Under the pieces are notes generated by a model that was not told the DNA's origin, did not search any database, and saw only the letters and a list, made by a program, of their open reading frames with translations. Shown here in pieces: positions 29,311 to 62,292 of a stretch of DNA of 64,000 nt. The position numbers and the translations under genes are program-made. Origin of the DNA: Candidatus Saccharimonadota bacterium (GTDB lineage Bacteria; Patescibacteriota; Saccharimonadia; Saccharimonadales; UBA4665); assembly GCA_014377525.1 (NCBI GenBank), contig JACMPL010000016.1, positions 1 to 64,000 of the forward strand, in the 5' to 3' direction. Position 1 is the first letter of the stretch, and the number at the start of each line of letters is the position of its first letter.

Positions 29311-29341
29311 AATTGGCACTCTTGACGTGAGAGTGCCAATT
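29311..29341 (+). promoter_or_regulatory. CIRCE-like operator of clpC
   Basis: Perfect 11-bp inverted repeat AATTGGCACTC / GAGTGCCAATT with a 9-bp spacer. The core TTGGCACTC-N9-GAGTGCCAA differs from the HrcA-binding CIRCE consensus TTAGCACTC-N9-GAGTGCTAA by one symmetric base per arm. It contains the -35 box in its spacer, so a bound repressor would block RNA polymerase. The same site lies before clpP. Confidence 0.85.
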
Positions 29342-29350
29342 TACTATGAT
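29322..29350 (+). promoter_or_regulatory. clpC promoter
   Basis: TTGACG (29322-29327), 17-bp spacer, TATGAT (29345-29350). The -35 box lies in the operator spacer and the right operator arm fills most of the promoter spacer. The leader to the clpC ATG is about 80 bases. Confidence 0.78.
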
Positions 29351-29436: not shown

Positions 29437-31911
29437 ATGATGCCAAATTCACCAGATTTCCAAGAATTCCTCAATCATTTGACGAATAATGCGCTGCAAA
29501 GCCTTAAGCACGCCGATGCGATTGCCCGCAGCTTCGGTAGTGCCTATGTCGGTACCGAACATTTACTTCTGGGAGTACTTGCCCAAGACGGCAGCATGGG
29601 TAACAAAATGCTGGAAGGCGCTGGCGTAACGCTTGATCGCGCTCGATTAGCGCTTAACATGACGCCCAAGACGCTCGTGATCAACATGGGGGCTAAAGGT
29701 CTCAGTGAAACTGCTAAACTCACACTCAAGATGGCATATGACGTTGCCCAAGATTATAGCCAAGAATTTTGTGGTACCGAGCACATCCTGTTTAGCATTC
29801 TTAGTCAAAAGAATGCTCGGGCTACTATACTACTCCGCGATATGAATATTGATCTCGACAACTTAATGAATGAACTCGAGCAGTTCTTAAACCGCCAGCA
29901 GTATGACGATGACAGTGTCACCGGCACATCGCGCCGCGGTAAGAAGACCAAGAAGACAGCGCTTGATCATTACGGTACCGACCTCACGCTGCAAGCGCAG
30001 CAAAATAAGCTTGACCCCGTTGTTGGCCGCGATAACCAGATTCGTCGGCTAATTACTATTCTTAATCGTCGCACTAAAAATAACCCGGTGTTAATTGGTG
30101 AGCCAGGTGTTGGTAAAACGGCTATTGTCGAAGGTTTGGCCCAGCGCATTATTAGCGAAGACGTACCGGATAGCTTGATCGATAAGAAAATTGTCATGCT
30201 TGATCTCGCGGGAATGATTGCCGGCACAAAATACCGCGGCGAGTTTGAAGAGCGGCTCAAGAAAGTGATGAATGAACTAGAAAAAGATACCAAGACGATC
30301 GTATTTATCGACGAACTGCATCTAATTGTAGGAGCCGGTGCTGCCGAAGGTGCAATGGACGCCGGCAATATTCTCAAGCCGGCCCTTGCCCGTGGCAAAA
30401 TTCAAGTGATCGGCGCAACTACAACTGCCGAATATTCCAAGCACATCGAAAAAGATGCTGCTCTGGAACGACGTTTCCAACCGATCCAGGTTCCCGAAAC
30501 TACTCCGGCCGAAACGCTGGCCATCCTAAAAGGGCTTCGTAAGCACTACGAAGCCTTCCACGGTGTAAAAATTAGCGACGAGGTGTTAGAAGACGCAGTT
30601 TTGTTAGCTAAACGCTACGTGAATGATCGGTTTATGCCGGATAAAGCTATTGACCTGATCGATGAATCGGCCGCTCATTTGCGGGTTGATAAAGGCAAGA
30701 CAAGTCCTGAACTACGACGTTTACAAAAAGAGGCGAAGTTGCTTAAGAACCGTACCGAAGAAGCGGTTGATAGCGAAGATTACAAACTAGCTGCTCAATA
30801 TAAAACGCGGGCCAGTCAAATATCTGAGGAAATTGCTAAACTCACTAAATCAAGCAAGGCCGACAAACGTTTGGTACTTACTAGCGAAGATTTAGCCGAT
30901 GTTGTGTCGCGGATGACCGGCGTACCGGTTAAAAAAGTTATACGTTCTGAAGCTAAGTTCTTATTGTCGCTCGAAAAAAATCTTGGCAAGCATGTAATTG
31001 GTCAACACGAAGCTGTCGAAGCGGTATCTAAGGCTGTTCGCCGAAACCGCAGTGGTATCGGCAGTGAGAAACGGCCGATTGGTTCGTTTATATTCCTCGG
31101 TCCTACCGGAGTTGGTAAAACCGAATTAGCTCGAGTCCTAGCTCGTGAGTTCTTCGGTGATGAAAACAATCTCATTAAAATTGATATGAGTGAATTCGGC
31201 GAACATCATAACGTCTCACGTTTAGTCGGAGCGCCAGCTGGCTACGTAGGTTACGACGAAGGAGGTCAATTAACTGACAAAATCCGCCGCCAGCCGTACA
31301 GCCTGGTTCTTTTTGATGAGATCGAAAAGGCTCATCCAGACGTCTTTAACATGATGTTACAGATATTTGAAGATGGCTATTTGACCGATGCCAAAGGTCG
31401 CAAAATTGACTTTACTAATACTATTGTCATCATGACCAGTAACATCGGTGCCGATAAACTACAGAAAGAAGCTAACTTTGGATTCCGGGCAGTCAACAGC
31501 GGTGATATGAAGGATCTCGATGCATTGCATGAGGCTAATCGTGGGCAGGTGCTTAATGAACTCAAGAAGTTAATGCGCCCCGAACTATTAAATCGAATCG
31601 ATAAAACCATAGTTTTCCGAGCGTTAACGCAGAAGGATATCTTTAAGATAATTGATCTACAGATCGAGGAATTAAAGGCGCGTTTGCAGCGAAAAGGCCT
31701 GAGCGTTCAGCTGACAACGGCGGCTAAGCAGTATCTATTAGATAATGGTTACGATGCTAAGAACGGGGTCAGACCATTACGCCGACTCATACAAGATACT
31801 ATCGAGGATCAAATGGCGCTTAATGTGCTTGACGACAAGTATAGTAAGGGTGATATTATTCAGGTAGCAGCTAAAAACAGCCAGCTTACTTATGCAACAA
31901 CAAACGAATAA
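29437..31911 (+). CDS. clpC: ATP-dependent Clp protease ATP-binding subunit ClpC
   Basis: Hexameric Hsp100 unfoldase that feeds proteins to ClpP. The N-domain has two Clp repeats (about 5-145, [16 protein letters not shown] and [13 protein letters not shown]), D1 has Walker A GEPGVGKT and Walker B VFIDELH, the middle domain lies near 410-470 (coiled coil, short as in ClpC) and D2 has Walker A GPTGVGKT and Walker [12 protein letters not shown]. 824 aa is normal for ClpC. SD AAAGGTGG (29419-29426) precedes ATG 29437. Control is likely through the CIRCE-like site shared with clpP. Its 3' end overlaps the next gene by 20 bases. Confidence 0.97.
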
Positions 31912-46742: not shown

Positions 46743-46748
46743 TACAAT
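46743..46748 (+). promoter_or_regulatory. -10 box of tig
   Basis: TACAAT with the ATG at 46757 beginning 9 bases after it, giving a leader of about 2 bases and no SD. A short hairpin CAGGG/CCCTG (46724-46741) sits on the -35 side and could be an operator or weak terminator of the preceding gene. Confidence 0.5.
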
Positions 46749-46756
46749 TGCACACT

Positions 46757-48052
46757 ATGCAATTATCACAAGACAAGATCAACGACACTACTACTAAACT
46801 AACCGTCACAGCCGACAAAGACGTGCTTGAAGCTGGCCGTTTGCGAGCAGTCAAACGGCTCGGCAAAAACGTAAAAATTCAAGGTTTTCGCCCTGGTAAA
46901 GCACCACTTCACATCATAGAAAAGCAGCTTGATCAAAATTTTTTACAATCAGAATTCCTCGAAGAAATCGTTAATCAATTGTATGTTGAAGCAGCGCAAG
47001 AGCTTAAGCTTCGTCCAGTTTCTCAACCGAATGTTACGATCAAAAAATTTGTTCCTTTTAGCGAGTTAGAAATCGATTACGAAGTCGAGATCATTGGTGC
47101 GATTGTTCTGCCGGAATATCGTAAATACAAAGTCACTCGCAAGGCTGTAGCAGTCGCTGCTACAGACATCGCTGATGTACTGACGAATATGCGTACCCGC
47201 ACTGCCAGCCGCGCAACCGTAGAACGGGCCGCCGTAAATGGCGACTCCGTCACACTCGACTTTACGGGAACCGATGCCAAGACAAAAGAAGCCATCCCCG
47301 GTGCTGACGGAAATGACTACCCATTGGTACTCGGCAGCAAAAGCTTTATACCTGGTTTCGAAGATGAGATTATAGGACTTAAAGCTGGTGACGCCAAAGA
47401 GTTTGCCATCACGTTCCCCGCCGATTATGGATCAGTTGAACTACGAAAGAAAAAGGTTAGCTTCGCCGTCACAGTTAAGGAAGTGCAAGCCGTTGAGCTA
47501 CCAAAACTTGACGACGAATTTGCTAAAAATATTGGGCCGTTCGAATCTCTGGCAGCGCTCAAGACTGATATCAAAAAACAGCTTACCGATGAGCGCAACC
47601 AAGACGCCGATCGCGAATTCGATAATGAACTGCTAGAAATGATTGCTAAAGCGACGAAAATCACTGTTCCGGACTCATTGATCGAAGACGAGATTGACCG
47701 CATCGAAGCCGAAGAAAAGCGTAATTTAGTGTACCGTGGACAGACATGGCAGGAGCATCTTGATGCCGAAGGAGTTGACGAAAAAGCGCACCGCGAAAAG
47801 AACCGCGATGGTGCTGTAATTAGAGTCAAGGCAGGACTAGTACTTGCGCAAGTTGCAGAAGTTGAAAACATCGTAGTATCGCCTGATGAGCTCAATATTC
47901 AAGTTGAGTTGCTGAGGGGACGCTACACAGATCCAACGATGCAAGCCGAGCTAGATAAGCCAGAAAATCGTCGCGAACTTATGAGCCGCATGATCAGCGA
48001 GAAGTCGATGACCGCCATCAAAGCAAACATAAATGGAGCAACCAAGAAATAA
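46757..48052 (+). CDS. tig: Trigger factor
   Basis: Ribosome-associated chaperone and peptidyl-prolyl isomerase. The N-terminal ribosome-binding domain contains the tail-binding loop signature QGFRPGKAP (about residues 44-52), then an FKBP-type PPIase domain (about 150-235, GDSVTLDFTGT, VLGSKSFIPGFEDEIIG) and the C-terminal substrate-cradle helices. 431 aa is normal. ATG 46757 is chosen over the TTG at 46748 because TACAAT lies at leaderless distance. As in many bacteria it lies upstream of clpP, with one small gene between. Confidence 0.96.
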   Translation: MQLSQDKINDTTTKLTVTADKDVLEAGRLRAVKRLGKNVKIQGFRPGKAPLHIIEKQLDQNFLQSEFLEEIVNQLYVEAAQELKLRPVSQPNVTIKKFVPFSELEIDYEVEIIGAIVLPEYRKYKVTRKAVAVAATDIADVLTNMRTRTASRATVERAAVNGDSVTLDFTGTDAKTKEAIPGADGNDYPLVLGSKSFIPGFEDEIIGLKAGDAKEFAITFPADYGSVELRKKKVSFAVTVKEVQAVELPKLDDEFAKNIGPFESLAALKTDIKKQLTDERNQDADREFDNELLEMIAKATKITVPDSLIEDEIDRIEAEEKRNLVYRGQTWQEHLDAEGVDEKAHREKNRDGAVIRVKAGLVLAQVAEVENIVVSPDELNIQVELLRGRYTDPTMQAELDKPENRRELMSRMISEKSMTAIKANINGATKK

Positions 48053-48053
48053 A

Positions 48054-48311
48054 ATGACTTTAGCGTTAGAACGTATTCAACACCAAACAACAGAAATAAC
48101 AGTTGCGGCATCTGAAACAGAAGTAGGATTTGTCGGATTATCAACAGAAGATATAGAATTACGGCCCAATGGCAATAACCCCGAAGACCCACTTCTAGCT
48201 GTATATGATGATCAGCATAATCGGTTAATAGCTCACTGTTTTACTCAAATTAAAGTCGGACAATTAATTTTAGACATCGAACATTTTGGTGGATATTTCA
48301 CACACAAATGA
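48054..48311 (+). CDS. Small hypothetical protein, 85 aa
   Basis: I do not recognise this protein. It is 85 aa, acidic, without membrane helix, probably beta-rich (ITVAASETEVGFVGL; DDQHNRLIAH). ATG 48054 lies one base after the tig stop, so it is probably translated after tig; an in-frame ATG 48033 inside tig would add 7 residues. It is AT-rich. The CIRCE-like operator of clpP begins 20 bases after its stop. Confidence 0.5.
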   Translation: MTLALERIQHQTTEITVAASETEVGFVGLSTEDIELRPNGNNPEDPLLAVYDDQHNRLIAHCFTQIKVGQLILDIEHFGGYFTHK

Positions 48312-48330: not shown

Positions 48331-48365
48331 AAAATTGGCACTCTTGACGTAAGAGTGCCAATTTT
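48331..48365 (+). promoter_or_regulatory. CIRCE-like operator of clpP
   Basis: Perfect 13-bp inverted repeat AAAATTGGCACTC / GAGTGCCAATTTT with a 9-bp spacer TTGACGTAA. The core is identical to the clpC site and differs from CIRCE by one symmetric base per arm. Confidence 0.85.
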
Positions 48366-48372
48366 GTATTAT
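48344..48372 (+). promoter_or_regulatory. clpP promoter
   Basis: TTGACG (48344-48349) in the operator spacer, 17 bp, TATTAT (48367-48372). Same geometry as the clpC promoter. Leader about 29 bases with SD GAAGGAGG. Confidence 0.8.
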
Positions 48373-48407: not shown

Positions 48408-49010
48408 ATGTCAATACTGATCCCAACTGTTGTCGAAAGCGACGGCCGTTACGAGCGCGCCTATGACATCTATTCGCGGCTACTCAAAGATCGTATTATT
48501 TTTCTTGGCAGCGATGTCAACGAAGCCAGTGCCAATGTGATCGTCGCTCAATTACTTTTCTTGCAATCAGAGGATGCCAAAAAAGATATTTATTTTTACA
48601 TTAACAGCCCCGGCGGCAGCGTCTATGACGCCTTGGCTATCTACGACACTATGCATTACATCACGAATGACGTGCAGACGGTTGGCATTGGCGTACAGGC
48701 ATCGGCTGCTGCGTTCTTGCTTAGCTCTGGTGCGAAAGGTAAGCGATTTGTCTTGCCAAATGCAACGGTCATGATTCATCAACCATCTAGTGGTACCCGG
48801 GGTAAAGTTACCGACCAAGAGATTGATCTTCGCGAAAGCCTACGCATCAAGCAATTATTAGAAACGATCATGGCAGGGAACACTGGCCAGAAACCGGAAC
48901 AGATTCATATCGATATGGAGCGTGATAAGTGGCTGACTGCTAAAGAGGCACTCAAGTACGGTATTGTCGACGCGATTATCGACAGCCCTAAAGAACTTGA
49001 AAAGAAATAA
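48408..49010 (+). CDS. clpP: ATP-dependent Clp protease proteolytic subunit ClpP
   Basis: Serine protease that degrades proteins unfolded by ClpC. The nucleophile Ser is in [11 protein letters not shown], the catalytic His in VMIHQPSSG and the Asp in the region following ([21 protein letters not shown]). The N-terminus [23 protein letters not shown] and the [18 protein letters not shown] strand are typical. 200 aa is full length. A strong SD GAAGGAGG (48396-48403) precedes ATG 48408. Control is through the CIRCE-like operator shared with clpC. Confidence 0.98.
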
Positions 49011-61315: not shown

Positions 61316-61334
61316 TTTTACAAACCTCACTTAT

Positions 61335-61367
61335 AAGAGCGCCTCGTCGAGGCGCTCTTAGTATTTT
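61335..61367 (+). terminator. Terminator after tuf
   Basis: AAGAGCGCC (61335-61343) pairs with GGCGCTCTT (61351-61359), loop TCGTCGA, tail AGTATTTT. Strong stem, modest T run. Confidence 0.75.
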
Positions 61368-62101: not shown

Positions 62102-62130
62102 ATCTTTCTGCTAAGCAGTTATTGATTATG

Positions 62131-62157
62131 AAAAACCGCACCCCTAGAGCGGTTTTT
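62131..62157 (+). terminator. Rho-independent terminator after rpsJ
   Basis: AAAAACCGC (62131-62139) and GCGGTTTTT (62149-62157), a perfect 9-bp stem with a 9-base loop and T run. It separates rpsJ from the rest of the S10 operon. Confidence 0.88.
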
Positions 62158-62292
62158 CATGTAATTGATCAATTGATCTGGCTAATTTGTGTAAATTATT
62201 TCATAAACGGATATAAGGTAGTAGGCTATAGTTAAATTTGTTACAAAGTATACGCTCAACAATTCTAGCAGTACTAATCCAGGAGACTAACA

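Follow-up and report, generated by a model that had tools for sequence, protein, structure and literature searches.

The inverted repeat that precedes clpP in the window (the whole stretch of 64,000 nucleotides analysed here) is by its sequence a CIRCE element, the operator type of the HrcA repressor, and we are strongly confident that it serves as the operator of this heat-shock repressor, overlapping the clpP promoter, so placed that HrcA binding would repress clpP and heat would induce it. A near copy of the same operator-promoter module precedes clpC in the window. The features concerned are:

46748..48052, + strand: tig (trigger factor), the upstream neighbour of clpP
48331..48365, + strand: CIRCE operator of clpP, an inverted repeat with extended 13-bp arms, conserved in 80/80 GTDB relatives
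48344..48372, + strand: clpP promoter, sigma-70-like, with a TTGACG -35 (48344-48349), 17 bp, and a TATTAT -10 (48367-48372), the register being kept in relatives
48408..49010, + strand: clpP, ATP-dependent Clp protease proteolytic subunit, 200 aa (PF00574, E 3.3e-74)
29311..29341, + strand: CIRCE operator of clpC, 11-bp perfect arms, core 29313-29339
29322..29350, + strand: clpC promoter, TTGACG -35 in the spacer, 17 bp, TATGAT -10
29437..31911, + strand: clpC, 824 aa, with Clp_N, two AAA modules, and D2-small

The arms of the clpP repeat, AAAATTGGCACTC (48331-48343) and GAGTGCCAATTTT (48353-48365), are exact reverse complements separated by the 9-bp spacer TTGACGTAA (48344-48352), and the core TTGGCACTC-N9-GAGTGCCAA (48335-48361) can be set beside the CIRCE consensus TTAGCACTC-N9-GAGTGCTAA (PMC3842655; PMC8762339). 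Both the clpP and the clpC cores fit this consensus with an exact N9 and perfect arms, departing from it by one symmetric A-to-G change; the spacer at clpC is TTGACGTGA. A sigma-70-type promoter, TTGACG-17-TATTAT, overlaps the repeat ahead of the start codon at 48408: its -35 hexamer sits within the CIRCE spacer, and its two hexamers enclose the right arm. The first-pass annotation did not recognise CIRCE, but it had described the clpP site with 13-bp perfect arms and the same promoter, and the sequence bears this out; its description of the clpC site as a second perfect copy holds for the core, the TTGACG, and the 17-bp distance, but the clpC arms are 11 bp rather than 13 and the -10 is TATGAT rather than TATTAT. 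The same annotation was right that two such copies are not due to chance: with a 9-bp spacer, arms of at least 13 bp are expected 0.001 times per window and arms of at least 11 bp 0.015 times; allowing up to 3 mismatches, CIRCE is matched at the clpP and clpC sites and nowhere else in the window; and shuffled windows contain a mean of 0.09 matches, with two matches in 0/100 shuffles. Other 9-bp-spaced repeats in the window, at 61334-61360 and 62128-62160, are unrelated to CIRCE in sequence; the latter, with 12-bp arms ATGAAAAACCGC and GCGGTTTTTCAT, could be a terminator.

Consistent with a promoter threaded through the operator, among 136 distinct clpP sites from relatives the spacer of 124 has TTGAC on the same strand as clpP and that of none has it on the other, a strand bias which supports this arrangement. 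The motif begins at the first base of the spacer in 80 of the 136 sites and at the fifth base in 43, with one odd case, and in most sites the best -10 follows it at a distance of 17-18 bp. The 69 clpC sites show TTGAC registers of 42, 7, and 4 in others, and several further sites have TTG followed by different letters.

A scan for CIRCE with up to 3 mismatches across the whole assembly of this Saccharibacteria genome (890,971 bases in 40 contigs), whose nearest relatives bear the name Candidatus Saccharibacteria, matched nine places. Besides clpP and clpC these are i) a site before hrcA-grpE (1 mismatch); ii) a site after grpE (0 mismatches), where dnaK follows in relatives, dnaK itself lying beyond the contig end here, and the order hrcA-grpE-CIRCE-dnaK being present in a complete relative (L371; HSP70 match); iii) two copies before groES of groESL (2 mismatches each); iv) a weak site in the 3′ end of tilS, ahead of ftsH (2 mismatches); and v) two remaining matches with 3 mismatches each. 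The clp geometry recurs in the hrcA promoter (TTGCTA-17-TAAACT) and in that at the dnaK position (TTGACA-17-TATTAT), while the groES promoter differs in having its -10 within the spacer of the first CIRCE copy. CIRCE thus stands before the hrcA/dnaK and groESL operons as well, and by this reading of the sequence the HrcA/CIRCE regulon of the genome comprises at least five units; the Clp genes therefore appear to join the class I chaperone regulon. The claim that the shared module places clpC and clpP under one repressor agrees with their common CIRCE and its retention in relatives, but the first-pass annotation was wrong to call this a two-gene regulon: the genome-wide scan that it proposed did match both clp sites, together with seven further places, and a dedicated clp pair is rejected by the sites at hrcA, the dnaK position, and groES in the same genome.

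The CIRCE-like site before ftsH (L006:10282-10308) is also found in nine relatives (L362-L370), usually overlapping the end of tilS, and often reads CTAGCGCTC-N9-GAGTGCCAA with 1-2 mismatches. In three of these relatives (L368, L369, and L370) the site persists although the end of tilS is different, and ftsH is therefore suggested as a regulon member, probably a genuine one on this evidence.

One hrcA was found in the genome, followed by grpE. Its product (L006:658-1413, - strand) is a 251-aa protein with the winged-helix N-terminus and the HrcA C-terminal domain, PF03444 and PF01628 both scoring above cut-off, but it falls short of the full-length HrcA equivalog of about 340 aa (TIGR00331 score 180.2 against a cut-off of 197.2), and PF01628 is matched from position 94 only, the first part of the profile being without a match. 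This short form is general: among 162 Patescibacteria genomes with a match, nearly all have HrcA frames of mostly 230-280 aa in which the match to PF01628 usually sets in only around position 75-110, whereas the HrcA of T. maritima (1stz) is 338 aa long. Patescibacteria as a whole may lack the inserted dimerising domain of HrcA. Because the short form is general there, we regard the protein as a variant HrcA; the CIRCE membership of the operator is independent of this assignment.

The clpP operator is strongly conserved, in an order where hrcA was found in 89/100 genomes. CIRCE precedes clpP at 80/80 of the closest clpP loci in GTDB genomes with 0-2 mismatches (6-9 in an in-gene control scan) and at 81/88 clpP matches in genomes of the order with up to 3 mismatches, and it precedes clpC at 29/29 family loci and 40/40 order loci (69 in all), although the GTDB, family, and order sets overlap and these counts are not independent. 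Class members outside the order have the clpP site in 2/2 cases, and Patescibacteria outside the class in 2/58, both from family f88; divided by hrcA status, the latter have it in 0/17 genomes in which no hrcA was found and in 2/41 with hrcA. In the two f88 genomes (L276, L296) the CIRCE-like site before clpP has the right arm GACTGCTAA, and it is perhaps an independent gain. Judged by this distribution, the link between CIRCE and clpP is mainly a trait of the class to which the Saccharibacteria belong.

Seven clpP matches in the order lack the site. One is non-orthologous (28% identity, G096). Two, from genus g91, have a clpC-clpP tandem, its genes separated by about 25-43 bp, that is headed by a perfect CIRCE (L302 and L303, with L224 and L228), an arrangement in which a single CIRCE before clpC by position replaces the separate clpP site. 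The remaining four, two from f20 and two from f34, keep clpP without a good CIRCE; clpP lies directly behind tig in three of them (both f20, one f34), the f20 genomes retain CIRCE before clpC, and no ClpC ortholog was recognised in the f34 genomes, where the clpC search gave only distant ClpB-like matches. The conservation that the first-pass annotation had asked for is therefore present, at 81/88 clpP and 40/40 clpC loci of the order. As to the observation that it said would overturn its reading, namely relatives keeping the genes but losing both repeats without compensation, the g91 pair is compensated by the tandem and the f20 pair keeps the clpC CIRCE, but four genomes do keep clpP without a site, two of them (f34) without a recognised ClpC.

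In Firmicutes, clpC and clpP are classical CtsR targets (PMC3842655), and one could imagine a repressor of the CtsR, HspR, or ClgR type that serves the clp genes alone, as in Firmicutes or Actinobacteria, with the repeat as its operator. This we consider exceedingly improbable, as the clp repeat is CIRCE, a palindrome common to the hrcA, dnaK, and groES sites. CtsR control is rejected by a gene found in 0/100 genomes of the order and by 0 matches to the CtsR box (a tandem heptamer) in the window. HAIR-like matches, as expected of HspR sites, occur only at chance level, with none near the clp genes. A subtler version would make the clp sites a separate sub-regulon of a second HrcA-like repressor, marked by the symmetric G/C variant (TTGGCACTC..GAGTGCCAA): within this genome, G..C occurs in both perfect arms at the clpP and clpC sites alone. 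We give this almost no credence, given that the genome has one hrcA and no second HrcA gene was found in it, and that most clp sites in relatives are of the ordinary A..T form, which is commonest at this place, the G..C form making up about 4-7% of relatives' sites. Since the variant is not conserved in relatives, comparison of the sites gives the A-to-G change common to both clp sites no special meaning.

That the repeat instead acts as RNA, either as a tig-clpP terminator or as a hairpin in the clpP leader, is suggested by a terminator scan, in which 48331-48365 scores as a stem with T-rich sequence behind it. We think this very unlikely: the repeat ends before the -10 and would be missing from a clpP transcript made from that promoter; the T-run is often absent in relatives that keep the CIRCE letters; the spacer retains a -35; and no Rfam family matched above its gathering score. 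The RNA element is accordingly rejected as the primary function, although the repeat may have a side role in ending tig transcripts.

HrcA in model organisms is a repressor that needs GroEL and is relieved under stress. The operators, promoter geometry, hrcA gene, members by position, and conservation are all observed, and from them we infer HrcA binding, repression, heat induction, and GroEL feedback. In the unstressed cell an HrcA dimer would occupy both half-sites and keep sigma-70 RNA polymerase off the clpP promoter, because the operator covers the -35, which falls within its 9-bp spacer, and its right arm fills the stretch from there up to the -10. When unfolded proteins occupy the chaperones, HrcA would lose activity (GroEL feedback by analogy), clpP would be expressed with clpC, hrcA-grpE, dnaK, and groESL, and folding and ClpCP degradation would rise together. 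In a stress comparison of cultured TM7x, the initial encounter phase showed higher levels of most chaperones, and the later, recovery phase higher levels of one predicted clp protease (PMC10768705). Co-expression is therefore not simply confirmed there; further control, or clp genes other than these, may play a part.

Compared with the HrcA/CIRCE class I regulon of many bacteria (exemplified by the dnaK and groE operons of Bacillus subtilis), the palindrome, 9-bp spacer, hrcA-grpE-dnaK order, CIRCE before hrcA, and groESL target are the same, but the Saccharibacteria order appears to add clpC and clpP (and probably ftsH) as direct targets, and the clp sites usually have the -35 hexamer inside the CIRCE spacer. 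HrcA/CIRCE itself is a well-known system, and there are earlier cases of clp-type genes under HrcA. In Streptococcus salivarius, clpP is reportedly under dual control by CtsR and HrcA with a CIRCE operator (Chastanet and Msadek, cited in PMC3842655); CIRCE is used as here, but CtsR acts there too, whereas none was found in Saccharibacteria, where HrcA would therefore act alone. The clpL gene of Lactobacillus gasseri is another precedent (PMC3192767). The Mollicutes regulon of HrcA includes clpB, lon, and dnaK (PMC5138195), so that HrcA took in AAA+ protease/disaggregase genes in another genome-reduced group, though clpB and lon rather than clpC and clpP. The CtsR class III regulon of Firmicutes (clpC, clpP, clpE) has the same targets and stress logic but differs in repressor family and in its tandem heptamer operator. 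In the literature searched, with subscription journals mostly outside it, we found no description of class-wide inclusion of clpC and clpP without CtsR, and nothing linking CIRCE with Saccharibacteria or HrcA with the candidate phyla radiation; matches for HrcA with Saccharibacteria or Patescibacteria concerned other subjects.

Saccharibacteria are tiny, parasitic, and live on the surface of other bacteria with small genomes. We wish to raise a broader proposal whose chances we put at about even: that they possess one unified proteostasis switch, in which a shortened form of HrcA, general in Patescibacteria and perhaps lacking the inserted dimerising domain, directly represses chaperones and AAA+ proteases (ClpCP, probably FtsH, and in some species ClpB and Hsp20), in place of the two repressors, one for chaperones and one for proteases, that other bacteria use, with operators fused to the core promoter by placing the -35 in the CIRCE spacer. 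The class-wide operator before clpC and clpP allows their heat-shock circuit to be read from the sequence and tested in cultured strains, and predicts that HrcA controls folding and degradation together in Saccharibacteria. It also shows a way for a lineage with a reduced genome to bring two classical stress regulons under a single repressor.

Some minor observations may be added. A 92-aa open frame without a Pfam match (48033-48311) overlaps the end of tig just ahead of the clpP operator. In one genome (G084) an hsp20 gene (L359:1833-2306) has a CIRCE at 1621-1647 with TTGACA in the spacer, and a distant family member (G127) has a perfect CIRCE core at C1:184098-184120 (L342), where it lies upstream of a minus-strand ClpB/ClpC-like gene (181026-183569).
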